A stretch of DNA of 29,565 bases from a virus, in the IMG/VR virus record IMGVR_UViG_3300032313_000291, positions 1-29,565 of that record, one strand, 5' to 3'. Made by a program: the position numbers and the translations under genes. The notes beneath the pieces are model-generated. The model was not told where the DNA came from. It did no database searches and saw only the letters and a program-made list of their open reading frames with translations. Of this stretch, positions 5,095 through 29,565 are shown in pieces (position 1 is the first letter of the stretch; each line of letters opens with the position of its first letter).

Positions 5095-6310
5095 CGTAGA
5101 AGATAGAATTATATCTGCGGTATTGGAAGACAAGCAGCTTCACGTTTTGCTACAAGCAAACGTTGAGTCGCTGCTAAGAACCCATGGAGACATTTGGCAA
5201 TTCATTCGCAAGTATGCAGAGCTTAATGGATCTGTTCCACCAACATCTCTAGTTGTCGAAAAGTTTAGGGACTTCTCTCCTGTTTCTGGTATTGGTGCTA
5301 CTAAGCATCACCTAGAAGAACTTCAGGCATCATATCTAGAAGACAGCCTAAAGGAAATTCTAGTTTCTGCAGCCACTGATGTGCAAAATGGTAAAGGTGT
5401 TCAGGTCCTTGAGTCGCTAATTACAAAGACATCTGAGCTAAAGAAAAATACATCTGTTATTCGTGACATTGATGTTACAGATCTAGAGTCTGCAGTAGCA
5501 TACTATGAACATGTTCAGAAGCAGCAAGAGTTAGGCACAATTGGTATTAAGACTGGTCTGCCAGGATTTGACAACTACCTTCCTGCTGGTATTATGCCAG
5601 GACAGCTAGGCGTTATGCTTGCTTATCCAGGTATTGGAAAGTCTTGGCTATCGCTATACTTTGCGGTACAGGCATGGAAGCAGGGTAAGTCACCAATGGT
5701 TATCAGCCTTGAGATGAGTGAGACAGAGGTTCGCAACCGTGTCTTTGCAATCATGGGTGAGGGTCTGTGGTCACACAGAAAACTTTCTAATGGACAGATG
5801 GACATTGCGGACCTAAAGCGTTGGCACGAAAAGACTCTTAAGGGTAAGCCAGAGTTCCATATTATTTCTAATGATACTGGTGGAGACATTACGCCATCTG
5901 TATTGCGTGGAAAGATTGATCAGTACAAGCCTGACTTTGTTGTGGTTGACTACTTGCAGCTTATGTCTCCAAACCAAAAAGCAGATAATGAGACGGTACG
6001 TATGAAGAACCTTTCTCGTGAGCTAAAGCTTATGGCAATTGGAGAAGAAGTTCCTATTATCGCTATCTCATCTGCAACGCCAGATGACGTTACAAAGCTA
6101 GATACAGTACCTACCCTGGGTCAGACTGCTTGGTCTCGTCAAATTGCCTACGATGCTGACTGGGTGCTTGCTTTGGGTCGTGCTACAAACTCTGATATTA
6201 TTGAATGTGTATTCCGCAAAAACCGTAATGGTTTTATGGGAGACTTTTTAGTTCAGGTTGATTTTGATAAAGGCTGGTATAGGTACAAGGATTATGAAGA
6301 CAAGTCCTAA
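5087..6310 (+). CDS. dnaB: DnaB-like replicative DNA helicase
   Basis: 407 residues with a GTG start overlapping the upstream gene. A helical N-domain (~1-125) is followed by a RecA-fold motor. Walker A is AYPGIGKSW (179-187); Walker B is DFVVVDYLQL (283-292), with the YLQLM signature typical of DnaB/gp4-type helicases. A later RQIAYDADWVLALGR (~351-365) matches the arginine/strand region near the end of the motor. It unwinds DNA at the phage fork as a hexamer. The DnaG-like primase (7127) and DnaE (8774) nearby complete the replisome. It is slightly shorter than cellular DnaB (~450-470). Confidence 0.9.
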   Translation: MTSVEDRIISAVLEDKQLHVLLQANVESLLRTHGDIWQFIRKYAELNGSVPPTSLVVEKFRDFSPVSGIGATKHHLEELQASYLEDSLKEILVSAATDVQNGKGVQVLESLITKTSELKKNTSVIRDIDVTDLESAVAYYEHVQKQQELGTIGIKTGLPGFDNYLPAGIMPGQLGVMLAYPGIGKSWLSLYFAVQAWKQGKSPMVISLEMSETEVRNRVFAIMGEGLWSHRKLSNGQMDIADLKRWHEKTLKGKPEFHIISNDTGGDITPSVLRGKIDQYKPDFVVVDYLQLMSPNQKADNETVRMKNLSRELKLMAIGEEVPIIAISSATPDDVTKLDTVPTLGQTAWSRQIAYDADWVLALGRATNSDIIECVFRKNRNGFMGDFLVQVDFDKGWYRYKDYEDKS

Positions 6311-6863
6311 GATAGATAATGATTTTGTGACAGTATATTCAAATGAGATTGATGCTAAAAAATGCATTGATTTAATTGAAAAAATTAGCACCACCTCAGA
6401 CTATTTTTTAGAGGATGTTGAAAGAAGACCTCATAAGACTATGATCATGCCAGCATTTTATGATAAAGAGGATTCTACAGAACAAATAGAGCTAAAGAGT
6501 ATAGTCTTGTCTATATTTACAAAATATATGTATGAGTACATTTGTAAAAAAAGAATATCAAATATAGAACTTTTTGGTGGAGGAATGATTGTATCAAAGC
6601 TTTCTCCAGGCAGATCTATGGAAACCCATATTGATGTAAAGTATCCAGAATTAAACCCAAATGGCTTTATAGCAATGATATATATAAATGACGACTATGA
6701 AGGTGGAGAAATTTATTTTGAAAATCATAATTTTTCATATAAGCCATCTAGTGGAGATATAGTTTTTTATCAGATGGCAGAGCCACATGGAGTAAGGGCA
6801 TGCTCTATAAATGATAGATATAATATAGGATTTGTTTTTAGAGGCCAGCATATGTCAATATAG
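6294..6863 (+). CDS. 2-oxoglutarate/Fe(II)-dependent oxygenase
   Basis: 189 residues from ATG 6294, chosen because AAGG lies 4 bases upstream and it begins inside the helicase 3' end. The core shows the Fe(II) triad H112-x-D114 (in METHIDVKY) and H165 (EPHGVRAC), plus R175 for 2-oxoglutarate; GGEIYFEN (137-144) is typical of the prolyl-4-hydroxylase-like superfamily. Substrate unknown: a protein side chain, nucleotide or small metabolite are all possible. The gene is much more AT-rich than its neighbours, with heavy use of ATA isoleucine codons, suggesting recent acquisition. Confidence 0.8.
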   Translation: MKTSPKIDNDFVTVYSNEIDAKKCIDLIEKISTTSDYFLEDVERRPHKTMIMPAFYDKEDSTEQIELKSIVLSIFTKYMYEYICKKRISNIELFGGGMIVSKLSPGRSMETHIDVKYPELNPNGFIAMIYINDDYEGGEIYFENHNFSYKPSSGDIVFYQMAEPHGVRACSINDRYNIGFVFRGQHMSI

Positions 6864-16121: not shown

Positions 16122-16647
16122 AGACATGACCGTAGAGCACCTTGATCAGGTCAATAGAGTTGTAGAAAAGTATTTAGCTGGCCAGGAGCCAACGCAGATT
16201 TCTAAAGAGCTTGCACTACCAAGACAGAAGGTTGTTGCATACCTTAATGAGTGGCGAGTCATGGCAGCAGACAATGCAGCAATTCGTGCACGAGCTAAAG
16301 AGGCATTGGTAGGTGCCGATGCACACTACAATAAGCTAATTCAAAAAGCATATGAGGTTATCGATGATGCAACCACTACTGCTAACCTAACTGCTAAAAC
16401 ATCTGCTATCAAGCTAGTTCTTGACATTGAAGCTAAGCGTATTGATATGCTACAGAAAGCTGGTCTTTTGGAAAACAAGGAGCTTGCTGAAGAGATGCTA
16501 GAGATTGAGCATAAGCAAGAAGTTCTTGTTGGAATCCTAAAAGACATTGCCTCTGAGTACCCACAAGTTCGTGATGAAATTATGAGAAGGCTGTCTTCTG
16601 TTTCTAAAGACCAGGAAGTTGTTACGGTAGTTCATAGAGATGTTTGA
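16111..16647 (+). CDS. terS: Terminase small subunit
   Basis: 178 residues from TTG 16111 (ATG 16126 is the alternative). A helix-turn-helix at ~18-48 (YLAGQEPTQISKELALPRQK) and a long helical middle (~55-150) match the DNA-recognition and oligomerisation domains of small terminases. It overlaps terL by 8 bases. It would recognise the packaging site and recruit TerL. The family was recognised by layout and its position next to terL. Confidence 0.75.
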   Translation: MSIEDMTVEHLDQVNRVVEKYLAGQEPTQISKELALPRQKVVAYLNEWRVMAADNAAIRARAKEALVGADAHYNKLIQKAYEVIDDATTTANLTAKTSAIKLVLDIEAKRIDMLQKAGLLENKELAEEMLEIEHKQEVLVGILKDIASEYPQVRDEIMRRLSSVSKDQEVVTVVHRDV

Positions 16648-18415
16648 TGATTTCTTAGAAGCACTCAAGTCTGATAATTTTGAGGAGAGGCCAGTAGATG
16701 CCAAAACCTTTGTTGAGGGTGAAGCCTATCTAAACCAACCGCCACTCTCTCAGGTTCAGTATGACATTGTGGAAGCAATGAGTCAGATATATAGGCTAGA
16801 AGATGTTATAGAACTTCTTGGCGATGCTGAAGGGAGAAGGTATTATAAAAAGTATACTAAGAACGAAATTATTCTCCAACTGGGCAAGGGGTCTGGTAAA
16901 GACTTTACGTCTACAGTTGCTTGTGCGTACATCGTATATAAACTACTTTGTCTTAAAGATCCAGCACGGTATTTTGGTAAACCTGCTGGCGATGCCATTG
17001 ATATTATTAACGTTGCGATTAACGCCCAGCAAGCGAAAAATGTATTCTTTAAAGGCTTTAAGACTAAGATTGAAAGGTCGCCTTGGTTTGCTGGAAAGTA
17101 TAATCCAAAAGCCGAGTCTATCGAATTTGACAAGTCTATCACTGTTTATTCAGGACACTCCGAAAGAGAGTCACACGAGGGTCTCAACCTTATTCTTGCG
17201 GTCCTTGACGAGATCTCTGGATTTGCTACAGAAGTTGGAACTGGAAATGATCAGGGTAAGACAGCAGACAATATCTACAAAGCCTTCCGAGCCTCAGTTG
17301 ATTCACGATTCCCAGACCTAGGTAAGGTAGCCCTTCTATCTTTCCCACGTTTTCCAGGAGACTTTATCTCTACAAGGTATGAAGCGGTAATTGCTGAAAA
17401 GGAAGTTGTAACAAAGACTCACAGGTTTGTTATGAATCCTGACCTTCCAGAAGACCAAGAAGGAAACTATCTCGATATTGAGTGGGATGAGGATACGATC
17501 ATTAGCTATAAGTATCCAGGTATGTTTGCAGTTAAGCGTCCTACTTGGGTAGTTAACCCAACCCGTAAGATTGATGACTTCAAGCTAGCATTCTTTACAG
17601 ACATGGGGGATGCTATGCAACGTTTTGCCTGTGTTCCAACATTCTCTTCTGACAGATTCTTTAAGCAGACAGAGAAGGTTCAGGCAGCCATGACAATCAG
17701 AAACCCACTGGATGCTATTAGAAGGTTTGATGAAAGCTTTAAGCCAGATCCAAATAAGAAGTATTACGTCCATGCTGACCTTGCACAGAAGCATGACAAG
17801 TGTGCCGTTGCTATTGCTCACGTAGATAAATGGGTAAACATTCAGGTTATTAAAGACTATCAGCAGATTGCTCCAGTTGTTGTTGTGGATGCCGTGGCTT
17901 GGTGGGAACCAAAATCAGAAGGTCCTGTAAATCTTTCTGAGGTTAAGCAGTGGATTCAGAACCTACGCAGGCTTGGCTTTGATATCGGAATGGTATCATT
18001 TGACCGCTGGCAGTCATTTGATATTCAGAATGAGCTGAAGGCAGTGGGCATGAGAACAGAAACAGTTTCAGTTGCAAAGAAGCACTATGAGGATATGGCG
18101 ATGTTAATCTATGAAGAGAGACTAGCTATGCCTATGATTGATCTATTATTCGAAGAGCTTTCAGAGTTGAAAATTATGAATAATAATAAAGTTGACCACC
18201 CACGTAAAAAGTCTAAGGACTTGGCAGACGCTGTGTGTGGGGCAATCTTTGGTGCTATCTCTCACACGCCTAGAGATCTTAACCTTGAGGTTGAGATTCA
18301 TACGTTTAAGGATAGGCCAAAGGATCAGGTTGACAAAGACTCTGATGGTATGGTAAAATATAAGCCTATGCCAAATGATGTCAAAGAATACTTGGCTAGA
18401 TTCGATCTAATCTAG
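16640..18415 (+). CDS. terL: Terminase large subunit
   Basis: 591 residues. The ATPase has Walker A LGKGSGKDFT (81-90) and Walker B LILAVLDEISGF (184-195; D190, catalytic E191). The C-terminal RNase-H-like nuclease has acidic residues D380 (YYVHADLAQKHDKCAVAIAH), D455 (MVSFDRWQSFD) and D530 (SKDLADAVCGAIFG). It cuts concatemeric DNA and drives packaging into the prohead. Length is typical. No portal or capsid genes follow in this window; instead a secreted-protein gene follows. Confidence 0.92.
   Translation: MFDDFLEALKSDNFEERPVDAKTFVEGEAYLNQPPLSQVQYDIVEAMSQIYRLEDVIELLGDAEGRRYYKKYTKNEIILQLGKGSGKDFTSTVACAYIVYKLLCLKDPARYFGKPAGDAIDIINVAINAQQAKNVFFKGFKTKIERSPWFAGKYNPKAESIEFDKSITVYSGHSERESHEGLNLILAVLDEISGFATEVGTGNDQGKTADNIYKAFRASVDSRFPDLGKVALLSFPRFPGDFISTRYEAVIAEKEVVTKTHRFVMNPDLPEDQEGNYLDIEWDEDTIISYKYPGMFAVKRPTWVVNPTRKIDDFKLAFFTDMGDAMQRFACVPTFSSDRFFKQTEKVQAAMTIRNPLDAIRRFDESFKPDPNKKYYVHADLAQKHDKCAVAIAHVDKWVNIQVIKDYQQIAPVVVVDAVAWWEPKSEGPVNLSEVKQWIQNLRRLGFDIGMVSFDRWQSFDIQNELKAVGMRTETVSVAKKHYEDMAMLIYEERLAMPMIDLLFEELSELKIMNNNKVDHPRKKSKDLADAVCGAIFGAISHTPRDLNLEVEIHTFKDRPKDQVDKDSDGMVKYKPMPNDVKEYLARFDLI

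Positions 18416-19802: not shown

Positions 19803-19810
<8 letters not shown>
19418..19810 (+). CDS. nrdI: NrdI flavodoxin for class Ib RNR
   Basis: 130 residues, GAGGGAG ribosome site. [17 protein letters not shown] (7-23) is the NrdI FMN-binding loop; PTYGGG (~49) and [12 protein letters not shown] (~81) are further conserved NrdI stretches. Reduced NrdI supplies the oxidant that forms the Mn(III)2-tyrosyl radical in NrdF. The ATG of nrdE overlaps its end by 8 bases. First gene of an nrdIEF operon; no nrdH is present. Confidence 0.92.
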
Positions 19811-22861
<3,051 letters not shown>

Positions 22862-26000: not shown

Positions 26001-26072
26001 TCCTCCTTAGCTCAACGGCAGAGCAGAGAGCTGTTAACTCTAAGGTTCCTGGTTCGAATCCAGGAGGGGGAG
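26001..26072 (+). tRNA. tRNA-Asn (GTT)
   Basis: Complete cloverleaf: acceptor TCCTCCT/AGGGGGA (one G-U), D-arm GCTC/GAGC, anticodon loop CTGTTAA (anticodon GTT), T-arm CCTGG-TTCGAAT-CCAGG. CCA is not encoded. The outermost anticodon-stem pair is G-A. Confidence 0.92.
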
Positions 26073-26127
26073 CAGAGATCTACGGGCACAGAAATGTGGA
26101 TGCGGTTTATGTCTGGTTGCAAACGGA

Positions 26128-26133
26128 TATAAT
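26128..26133 (+). promoter_or_regulatory. TATAAT upstream of tRNA-Asp
   Basis: TATAAT lies 15 bases before tRNA-Asp in the 76-base spacer after tRNA-Asn. No -35 match or TG extension, so promoter function is uncertain. Nothing else recognisable is seen in the spacer. Confidence 0.3.
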
Positions 26134-26148
26134 TTGAGATCACTTTAA

Positions 26149-26222
26149 GGCTTCGTAGCTCAGTAGGTTAGAGCACCACCCTGTCACGGTGGGGGTCGTG
26201 GGTTCAAGTCCCATCGGAGTCG
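26149..26222 (+). tRNA. tRNA-Asp (GTC)
   Basis: Acceptor GGCTTCG/CGGAGTC (two G-U), D-arm GCTC/GAGC, anticodon stem CACCC/GGGTG-like with loop reading CTGTCAC (anticodon GTC), T-arm GTGGG-TTCAAGT-CCCAT. CCA not encoded. Confidence 0.93.
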
Positions 26223-26225
26223 CTT

Positions 26226-26298
26226 GGTCCCATCGTCTAGAGGCCTAGGACACCGCCCTTTCACGGCGGTAGCACGGGTTCGAATCCCGTTGGGACTG
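26226..26298 (+). tRNA. tRNA-Glu (TTC)
   Basis: Acceptor GGTCCCA/TGGGACT, anticodon stem CCGCC/GGCGG with loop CTTTCAC (anticodon TTC), T-arm ACGGG-TTCGAAT-CCCGT. CCA not encoded. Only 3 bases separate it from tRNA-Asp. Confidence 0.93.
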
Positions 26299-26305
26299 CT
26301 ATAAT
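26297..26305 (+). promoter_or_regulatory. Extended -10 before tRNA-Thr
   Basis: TGCTATAAT; its TG comes from the last bases of tRNA-Glu. TATAAT ends 9 bases before tRNA-Thr. Confidence 0.4.
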
Positions 26306-26314
26306 TAAATACTT

Positions 26315-26389
<75 letters not shown>

Positions 26390-27290: not shown

Positions 27291-27532
27291 TGCAGGTATT
27301 AACTGATCAATCTGAGTGGACCCTGACTGCTTTGGATAGGTGTGATGCTGGTTGTACAGCACAGGCTTATGTCAAGGCAGTTGGGGTTTCTGGCGAACTG
27401 CTATTTTGCTCTCATCACTATAATAAGATTACTAGTGATGCCGTTGGGTATGCTAACCTAGAAAAGTTTGCATATCAGATTGTAGACGAACGAGACAAGC
27501 TAATTGAAAACAGGCTCGTTGGAGAAAACTAG
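27290..27532 (+). CDS. Small Cys/His protein, DUF7455-like
   Basis: 80 residues, AGGA upstream. DRCDAGCTAQAYVKA, then GELLFCSHHYNK, is the pattern of the DUF7455 family common in Actinobacteria and their phages; C18, C22, C40 and H42/H43 could bind zinc. The family normally reads CxxC; here the first pair is C-x3-C. Function unknown. It supports an actinobacterial host. Confidence 0.7.
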   Translation: MQVLTDQSEWTLTALDRCDAGCTAQAYVKAVGVSGELLFCSHHYNKITSDAVGYANLEKFAYQIVDERDKLIENRLVGEN

Positions 27533-28344
27533 TGATACGTTTTAACTGGATGTGGCGTTACAATAAGCCAATGGATCAATCCGACTTAATAAAAATTTCT
27601 GATGAGCTAGACGCTGTAGGATACTATTCTATGCTGGTTACGGTTCACTCCAGGTCATCCGACTACCTTCCAATAATTTCAAGTGTTTTGGATAGAGGTC
27701 ACAAGCTTAAGTACATTCTTGCAATTAGACCGTACCTTCTTAGTCCGCAATACCTTATGATGCTTCTTGCTGGAATGGAAGAGGTGGCTAGGGATAGAAT
27801 AATGCTTAACTGGGTTCACGGTACCCTTGGACCTAAAGAAAACTTCGATGCGGTCCTTAGCTTGCCAGGCGACATGAATGATCCAGAAGTTAGAAGAAAG
27901 CATATGATTGATTTTATAGAAGCCTTAGACAAGACAAATATGCATCAGGACATCAAAATACCAGAATCTATGATGTCTGGAGGTAATCCAAATACAATAA
28001 ACCTTGTAAAAAGGTTTGGAATGCATCTTGGAAGTGGATACGATGTTTTTATAAATAACTATGAAAGTTATAGAAAGTATGAGTTTCCTAAAATATTTGT
28101 TCAAGTGTCCTTGCTGATTAGAGACACTGACGAGGAAGCTTTAGCAATTAAAGATGAGCGTGTTGTTGAAAACATAAACGTTATAGCTGGTTCAAAAGAA
28201 ACCATAGAAAAGAAAATTTTAGAACTTTACTCCATGGGAGCAACTGACTTACTTGTAAGTAATGCATTTGGTGAGCAAGGAGAAGAAAGGCAGAGGATCC
28301 ACGAATTGGTAAAGTCAATGAAGGATAGAGGTTTGGCAATATGA
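27532..28344 (+). CDS. Luciferase-like flavin-dependent monooxygenase
   Basis: 270 residues, GTG start with GGAG upstream. The TIM-barrel pattern of the bacterial luciferase/SsuD group is visible: ISDELDAVGYYSMLV (22-36), ILAIRPYLLSPQYLMMLLAG (62-81) and, near the end, AGSKETIEKKILELYSMGAT (219-238) followed by LLVSNAFG. Members use FMN or F420 to oxidise small molecules such as alkanesulfonates. It is slightly short for SsuD (~380), lacking some insertions. Substrate unknown. The stop overlaps the next ATG (ATGA), so both are likely made together. Confidence 0.75.
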   Translation: MIRFNWMWRYNKPMDQSDLIKISDELDAVGYYSMLVTVHSRSSDYLPIISSVLDRGHKLKYILAIRPYLLSPQYLMMLLAGMEEVARDRIMLNWVHGTLGPKENFDAVLSLPGDMNDPEVRRKHMIDFIEALDKTNMHQDIKIPESMMSGGNPNTINLVKRFGMHLGSGYDVFINNYESYRKYEFPKIFVQVSLLIRDTDEEALAIKDERVVENINVIAGSKETIEKKILELYSMGATDLLVSNAFGEQGEERQRIHELVKSMKDRGLAI

Positions 28345-29096
28345 TTATTCAGATTATAGGACTTCCTGGTTCGGGCAAGACAACGTTAGCCCTATCACTA
28401 AAGGAAAGGGTCAATGCCATACACGTTAATGCTGACGAGGTTCGATCAGACCTGAGCTCTGACCTAGGATTTTCTGAAGGAGACAGGCTAGAGCAAGCTA
28501 GAAGGCTTGGTGCTGTTGCTAGACTACTGTCTGGCCAGGGACACACGGTAATTGTTGACTTTGTATGTCCTACCGAAGCCACCAGAGCAGCTTTCGGACC
28601 TGCCAATATTGTAGTTTGGATGGATACAATCAGCGAGAGTAGGTTCGCTGACACCAATTCCATATGGGAAGCCCCTACAAATTTTGATATTGGGTTCAAT
28701 GACTTAGAGCAAGAAAATAAAGCTGATATAATTATTTCAACATTCAGTTTATTTGACTGGTCAGCACCTACCACCCTGCAGCTTGGTAGGTATCAGCCTT
28801 GGCACGAAGGGCATCAGGCACTTAAAGAAGAGGCACACAAAAGAACATCTCAGGTGTTGGTAGGAGTAAGGAATACTTATGGAACTTCGGAAAAAGATCC
28901 GCTCACTTATGAAGAAGTTGAACGATACATACGTGAAGGTGTCGGATACGATGGGAATACCCTGGTAGCAAGGCTACCAAACATAACTAATATAGTTTAT
29001 GGTAGAGACGTAGGATATAAGATTGAGCAGGTTGATCTACCGCCAGAAATCCAGGCTATCTCCGCAACACAAAAAAGGAAAGAACTTGGAATCTAA
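28341..29096 (+). CDS. APS-kinase-like/nucleotidyltransferase fusion protein
   Basis: 251 residues. N-terminal kinase (1-142): P-loop GLPGSGKTT (7-15), NADEVRSDL (30-38), FSEGDRLEQARRLGAVARLL (44-63) and the VCPTEATR region match adenylylsulfate kinase (CysC). C-terminal cytidylyltransferase-like domain: LGRYQPWHEGH (148-158), the HxGH-type motif, and ISATQKRKEL (240-249), the ISxTxxR-type motif. It probably phosphorylates and nucleotidylates a small molecule; the true substrate is unknown. It is compact compared with cellular two-domain enzymes. Related fusions are recalled in other phages. Confidence 0.75.
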   Translation: MIIQIIGLPGSGKTTLALSLKERVNAIHVNADEVRSDLSSDLGFSEGDRLEQARRLGAVARLLSGQGHTVIVDFVCPTEATRAAFGPANIVVWMDTISESRFADTNSIWEAPTNFDIGFNDLEQENKADIIISTFSLFDWSAPTTLQLGRYQPWHEGHQALKEEAHKRTSQVLVGVRNTYGTSEKDPLTYEEVERYIREGVGYDGNTLVARLPNITNIVYGRDVGYKIEQVDLPPEIQAISATQKRKELGI

Positions 29097-29292
29097 CGCA
29101 AGGTCAATAACAAAGGCATTAACATATCGTTTTTGGCAGAGCCTAAATACTTTCTTGATATCTTTAATAGTTACTGGTAAAATAGAAATGGCTACAGCAA
29201 TTGTAAGCCTAGAGGTTATAATCAAGATAGTGGTTTACTTCTGGCATGAAAGAATCTGGAGCAAGATTAAATGGGGAAGAAAAGATGTATGA
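29086..29292 (+). CDS. DUF2061 small membrane protein
   Basis: 68 residues from TTG 29086: AAGGA lies 6 bases upstream, and an earlier in-frame TTG at 29023 would add an unrelated coding shadow. ARSITKALTYRFWQSLNTFL, then VTGKIEMATAIVSLEVIIK and YFWHERIW-x-KIKWG are the DUF2061 signature. Two membrane helices (~15-30 and ~34-53). In bacteria this family is recalled near sulfate-assimilation genes, which suits the APS-kinase-like neighbour. Overlaps the upstream gene end and the next start. Confidence 0.75.
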   Translation: MESNARSITKALTYRFWQSLNTFLISLIVTGKIEMATAIVSLEVIIKIVVYFWHERIWSKIKWGRKDV

Positions 29293-29494
29293 GTATTTTG
29301 TAAAAGAAGTTACCAAGGTAGTTGATGGAGATACCATCGACGTTATTATCGATCTAGGTTTTGACATTATGTTTGCTTCTAGAGTAAGACTGGCTGGAAT
29401 TGATACCCCAGAATCACGTACTGCAGATAAGCATGAGAAGGCATGTTTCAGCTTCCACATCAGACCAAGTTGGAGGACTCATCGGATATCTTAA
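29285..29494 (+). CDS. Thermonuclease-like (SNase) gene, 3' part replaced
   Basis: ATG 29285 is preceded by GGGGAAGAAAAG. Residues 10-53 match the staphylococcal nuclease start: TKVVDGDTIDVIIDL with D14/D16, VRLAGIDTPESR with R35, D40 and E43. After DKHEKAC (codon 54, base 29446) the reading continues FSFHIRPSWRTHRIS and stops, which is not SNase-like; the second half of the domain is missing. Either the contig is chimeric here or the gene is broken. Only bases up to ~29446 are trusted as nuclease. Confidence 0.6.
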   Translation: MYEYFVKEVTKVVDGDTIDVIIDLGFDIMFASRVRLAGIDTPESRTADKHEKACFSFHIRPSWRTHRIS

Positions 29495-29565
29495 AGATAA
29501 TGCAGCGGTAAGCAATTCTTACGCGACAGGTAATGTCTTGGGCGATGACAAAGTCGGTGGGTTGA
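29445..29565 (+). other. GLUG-repeat coding fragment (probable chimeric join)
   Basis: In another frame the last ~120 bases read VSASTSDQVGGLIGY, then SNSYATGNVLGDDKVGGL, a clear GLUG repeat typical of very large bacterial surface proteins. There is no start, and the frame runs off the window. It has nothing in common with the preceding SNase gene. A misassembly is the simplest explanation. Confidence 0.65.

Follow-up and report, generated by a model that had tools for sequence, protein, structure and literature searches.

A phage-borne kinase–nucleotidyltransferase fusion and its DUF2061 partner as a probable module for the activation of sulfate to PAPS

Three coupled genes near the end of a virus fragment

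The window, that is, the whole stretch of DNA analysed here, is a linear fragment of 29,565 bases from a freshwater phage. Three tandem open reading frames were confirmed in it, coding in this order for a luciferase-like protein (LLM), a fused two-domain protein (KIN) and a DUF2061 protein:

27532..28344, + strand: LLM, GTG start, 270 aa; short SsuD-clade flavin-dependent monooxygenase-like protein
28341..29096, + strand: KIN, fused two-domain reading frame, ATG start, 251 aa
28341..28745, + strand: N-terminal domain of KIN, shortened CysC-like (APS kinase-like) P-loop kinase
28746..29096, + strand: C-terminal domain of KIN, compact HxGH nucleotidyltransferase (NTase); candidate sulfate adenylyltransferase of a new lineage
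29086..29292, + strand: DUF2061 small membrane protein (PF09834), TTG start, 68 aa

The tight coupling noted in the preliminary description of this locus is borne out, since the frames lie in tandem, LLM and KIN are joined by an ATGA overlap and the TTG start of DUF2061 falls within KIN. The TTG at 29086, which gives an overlap of 11 bp with KIN, is more likely to be this start than position 29023, given that a TTG at this place begins the gene in the closest relative (L002) too. The GTG start of LLM is found in L002 as well.

The terminase (16640-18415) is about 55% identical to the terminases of Streptomyces phages of about 128 kb, and the host is therefore likely to be an actinobacterium. 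Upstream of an M23 peptidase gene, four consecutive tRNA genes (Asn, Asp, Glu, Thr) occupy positions 26001-26389, and adjoining genes for the large and small subunits of ribonucleotide reductase lie at 19803-22861. The homology to relatives ends at about 29442 and the final 120 bases or so are foreign: the stretch 29443-29565 is without homology to the relatives, reads as a GLUG-like repeat (VGGLIGYLKDNAAVSNSYATGNV) and cuts an SNase-like gene, and is probably a chimeric assembly end.

Sequence and fold of the three products

The identities first proposed for the three products (luciferase-like protein, CysC-like kinase fused to a nucleotidyltransferase, DUF2061) are backed by Pfam matches. 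The N-terminal domain of KIN matches APS_kinase (7.2e-17), its best Foldseek matches are the APS kinases 4rfv and 3cr7, and it has a Walker A P-loop (GLPGSGKT). Compared with E. coli CysC, the region of the APS site is kept, as NADEVR and DLGFSEGDRLEQARR (Asp/Arg of DGDNVR; DLGFS..DR..NIRR), with two substitutions, of the first Asp by Asn and of the APS-binding Asn by Gln. The full lid of CysC (KKARAGELRNFTGID) is not present, 10 of its residues being gone from KIN, and the position of Ser109 (E. coli CysC numbering) is a Cys in all the KIN sequences that were compared. KIN is recognised by the NCBIfam model apsK (1.4e-17), but with 64 bits it stays below the equivalog cut-off of 138.7. It is also a full-length member of PHROG 10255 (8.7e-65), which is annotated as a kinase, without further functional assignment.

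The C-terminal domain matches CTP_transf_like (4.4e-4) and has the conserved motifs GRYQPWHEGH, YGRDVGY and ISAT..R. Its profile is nearest to the NMN adenylyltransferases 2qjt and 1f9a (NadM, NMNAT/Nudix), with which it shares the GRxQPxHxGH motif and a Rossmann-like fold. The structural model of full-length KIN is poor across this domain, which was therefore modelled alone (pLDDT 84); the best Foldseek matches of this model are NMNAT and PPAT. The domain differs from NMN adenylyltransferases in its C-terminal half, which carries YGR(D/G)VGY, and in its genomic context, which is that of sulfate rather than NAD; its scores are far from the NCBIfam equivalog cut-offs of this family (27.2 bits versus 397; 23 versus 127). 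The ATP sulfurylase Sat has the HxGH, GRDxxG and ISxTxxR (ISGT..R) motifs in common with the NTase, where the first and the last read HEGH and ISAT..R, but the QxRN sulfate motif of Sat is missing (GRYQPWHEGH in KIN, QTRNIPHLGH in Sat) and the Sat domain PF01747 gives no match on KIN. Judged by its sequence, the NTase is not recognisable as an ATP sulfurylase.

DUF2061 matches PF09834 (2.2e-15) with 57.2 bits, for a gathering score of 23.1.

LLM matches Bac_luciferase (5.6e-7). Its closest PDB chains are MsuD and SsuD, which are about 110 residues longer and with which LLM can be aligned over its N-terminal third (E 8e-7); the score of LLM against the SsuD equivalog model TIGR03565 is 34 bits, for a cut-off of 518. 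An SsuD-like enzyme linked to KIN could mean that the cassette scavenges sulfonates, LLM releasing sulfite which KIN and DUF2061 would process. We find this highly improbable, because all six of the SsuD active-site positions that were checked are changed (there are substitutions at C54, W196, R226, H228 and Y331, and a deletion of the R297 loop), and LLM is missing from most KIN loci. The suggestion that the cassette may scavenge or activate a sulfur compound thus survives in its second half, sulfate to PAPS being the most likely activation, while scavenging of sulfonates is disfavoured.

Partners of the cassette in viruses and bacteria

Relatives of KIN are encoded on at least 600 viral stretches. 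The counts of neighbours given here for KIN are those of the best 80 of these loci; many of the viral contigs are near-duplicates, so that the counts are not independent. DUF2061 begins at most 1.2 kb downstream of KIN in 73 of the 80. As a single-sequence query LLM finds no match among the viral contigs, whereas an alignment-based search finds 300 viral relatives. KIN is present within 51 of 80 loci centred on LLM; LLM immediately precedes KIN in 16 of these 80, and DUF2061 comes next in 14 of the 16, so that the order LLM-KIN-DUF2061 is beyond chance. The adjacency of homologues, whose complete lack in other phages would have spoken against a functional cassette, is therefore common.

The preliminary description had missed a recurring partner, the sulfotransferases. 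Genes of three sulfotransferase families (F33, F35 and F38) are found near KIN in 30 of the 80 loci, and within three genes of it in 19; F35 and F33 have both PAPS motifs (PKTAGSS or PRSG; RNP..R..S). In loci centred on F35, KIN is present in 51/80 (median distance 1.2 kb), compared with 9/78 for a glycosyltransferase family chosen by the same procedure as a control, the loci of which are shorter; when only loci of at least 12 kb are retained, the proportions are 47/66 and 7/31, respectively. Loci centred on F38 contain KIN in 19 cases out of 80, which is no excess over the control, and the two genes are about 1 kb apart where both occur. A recurring order is LLM, sulfotransferase, Asp/Asn-hydroxylase-like protein, KIN, DUF2061, Trp-halogenase-like protein. 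KIN relatives adjoin PAPS-type sulfotransferases in freshwater phages. Among cultured phages, five records contain a full-length KIN (about 40% identity). A Sulfotransfer_4-like gene lies just upstream of KIN in the Stenotrophomonas phages Bhz60 and Suzuki, in Clavibacter phage 33 and in Xanthomonas phage AhaSv, and Casjensviridae phages have a sulfotransferase-like gene two genes upstream.

In Stenotrophomonas phage Bhz60, a NADAR-domain gene (L500:4553-4996) is located between the sulfotransferase-like gene and KIN. A role in anti-phage defence was considered and set aside, PADLOC returning nothing beyond weak P-loop matches.

The bacteria of the ocean include few groups as common as SAR11 and SAR86. 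In their genomes and in other marine genomes, the kinase and the NTase are encoded by neighbouring genes, and all 77 cellular loci found to have the two domains carry them paired or fused. Relatives of KIN lie beside PAPS-type sulfotransferases in SAR86. Among 34 genomes with the domain pair, Sulfotransfer_3 is present in 28 and Sat in 2; matches to PAPS_reduct/CysD are weak only, in frames whose inferred sizes are those of GMP-synthetase or TilS, and the short kinase is the sole APS_kinase match in most of them.

In the SAR86 order (151 genomes, which are incomplete; NTase calls are strong hits), 76 genomes encode both the NTase and a sulfotransferase, 4 the NTase alone, 11 a sulfotransferase alone and 60 neither, an association with a Fisher probability of 1e-25, uncorrected for phylogeny. 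In the 11 genomes of this order that were checked, the sulfotransferase and the NTase are on one contig, separated by 544-573 bp, between which the kinase would fit.

The other point that had escaped the preliminary description is that a DUF2061-kinase-NTase trio replaces cysDNC in bacteria. In an alphaproteobacterial MAG (L175), the gene order is cbiX, uroporphyrinogen methyltransferase, cysI (701 bits, cut-off 457), cysH (250 bits, cut-off 154), DUF2061, kinase, NTase: DUF2061, kinase and NTase occupy the place expected for cysDNC in an operon of assimilatory sulfate reduction. CysH requires APS or PAPS, and this operon is therefore without activating enzymes unless the kinase and the NTase play that role. 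Two other loci, L507 and L510, have the core CysI/CysH-like-DUF2061-kinase-NTase in common with L175. Sat was not found in the approximately 610 kb, a part of the genome, that are covered for G446, the L175-type genome of L507.

These observations bear on the possibility that KIN is an enzyme of NAD salvage (nucleoside kinase and NMN adenylyltransferase), which might restore NAD during defence, for example. The NTase is nearest to NMNAT in profile and in fold, and a NADAR gene is adjacent in Casjensviridae. We nevertheless hold it to be very unlikely, since the kinase is CysC-like in sequence and fold, the NMNAT cut-offs are far from reached, the genes form an operon with cysI-cysH and the NTase tracks the sulfotransferase.

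Another possibility is that only the kinase acts on sulfate, converting APS to PAPS, while APS is supplied by Sat, CysDN or AprBA working in reverse, and the NTase does another job. The marine alphaproteobacterium G314, which has the cysI-cysH operon of L510, indeed encodes, in addition to the pair, a Sat whose motifs are complete; the pair adjoins aprB/aprA in some SAR11 loci, and a few SAR11 genomes contain Sat or a full-length CysC. On the other hand, Sat is found in 1 of the 151 SAR86-order genomes and a strong CysD also in only 1 (G229, which has a sulfotransferase and no NTase), although 87 have sulfotransferases, and the kinase and the NTase are paired or fused in the 77 cellular loci. 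We therefore regard this possibility as unlikely, if the least so of those considered.

The Sat gene of G314 (L563:355-2857) is next to a pyruvate-kinase-like gene, inside a surface-glycan gene cluster.

DUF2061 also has sulfur partners of its own. In three Mesorhizobium symbiosis plasmids, in the nodCI region, it lies between a sulfotransferase gene and cysD-cysN, whose cysN contains an APS kinase domain; a CysN-CysC protein in L531 and a CysN-like protein in L530 end in a DUF2061 domain. The Mesorhizobium genes for Nod-factor sulfation (sulfotransferase and nodPQ/cysDN) thus resemble the viral cassette, in that sulfotransferase, DUF2061 and PAPS-synthesis genes adjoin; they differ in having a canonical CysD and CysN-CysC in place of KIN, and the acceptor of the Nod system is known. 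Most other cellular DUF2061 loci examined have no sulfur gene within 1.5 kb, among them six loci of Gammaproteobacteria and those of halophiles, Phaeobacter and a Bradyrhizobium plasmid, and the link of DUF2061 with sulfur therefore holds for a subset.

In the phosphoramidate (MeOPN) pathway of Campylobacter, an NTase and a CysC-like kinase work by the same chemical logic. By analogy, KIN might make another 3'-phosphonucleotide-activated group, to be moved by enzymes of the sulfotransferase fold. There is little chance that it does so, considering the assimilatory sulfate operon of L175 and the association of DUF2061 with cysDN and nod sulfation genes.

A candidate route to PAPS

The sulfur connection that had been suspected for KIN and DUF2061 is strengthened by the cysI-cysH operon, the sulfotransferase partners and the CysN-CysC fusion, while no evidence was found for the alternative of DNA modification. 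We conclude that KIN and DUF2061 probably form a phage-borne module that activates sulfate to PAPS for sulfotransfer. Gene order, homology, co-occurrence and the replacement of cysDNC in an operon are direct observations; the catalytic activities, sulfate as the substrate, the acceptor and what DUF2061 and LLM do are inferred. The C-terminal NTase would join ATP and sulfate to give APS, and the N-terminal kinase would phosphorylate the 3'-OH of APS to give PAPS, from which sulfotransferases of these phages, or of the host, would transfer the sulfate to an acceptor. DUF2061, a small membrane protein, would be a partner in the synthesis of PAPS and might serve as an anchor or as a conduit for sulfate. 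That the NTase itself is the sulfate adenylyltransferase is the least certain of these steps. In the case of the phage of the window, the final transfer is deduced from relatives, because the window, itself a truncated record, contains no sulfotransferase.

The predicted overall reaction is that of human PAPSS1/2 and of bacterial CysDN/CysC or Sat/CysC, and in PAPSS, as in KIN, the APS-kinase domain precedes the adenylyltransferase domain. KIN differs from all these systems by its size (251 aa), the shortened lid of its kinase and its adenylyltransferase, which is NMNAT-like and is neither Sat (no PF01747) nor CysDN. With somewhat less confidence than for the module as such, we favour the idea that the NTase, of about 115 aa, represents a class of ATP sulfurylase that is independent of the others and has not been described before; together with DUF2061 and a mini APS kinase it would make PAPS for sulfotransferases in SAR86, in SAR11-like and other marine alphaproteobacteria and in very many aquatic phages, and would serve sulfate assimilation in some bacteria.

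In viruses, cysC genes and sulfotransferase genes have each already appeared in lists of auxiliary genes (PMC8066274, PMC8290583), and we found no description of a joint cysC-like/sulfotransferase system in the open-access literature on sulfotransfer and sulfate activation in phages, SAR86 and Pelagibacter. Most of the genomes examined have sulfotransferases yet no recognisable ATP sulfurylase, and the kinase-NTase pair would be the missing source of PAPS in SAR11 and SAR86. If this is true, viral "cysC" genes that are now filed under sulfate reduction (PMC8066274, for instance) would need rereading, DUF2061 would gain a process, and many freshwater phages would sulfate something during infection.

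Regarding LLM, its steady neighbours are hydroxylases, a halogenase and sulfotransferases, which suggests that it is a tailoring oxygenase accessory to the same module; its role would then be similar to that of the hydroxylases and halogenase which neighbour KIN in the relatives.

Genes for tryptophan-halogenase-like proteins and carbamoyltransferases are found near KIN in related phages (L025:8135-9682 and L049:10846-12276), which suggests a wider tailoring island. In the window, the reading frame at 6258-6863, which has no Pfam match, matches the profile of a 2OG-dioxygenase-like family from neighbourhoods of the cassette (1.7e-27).
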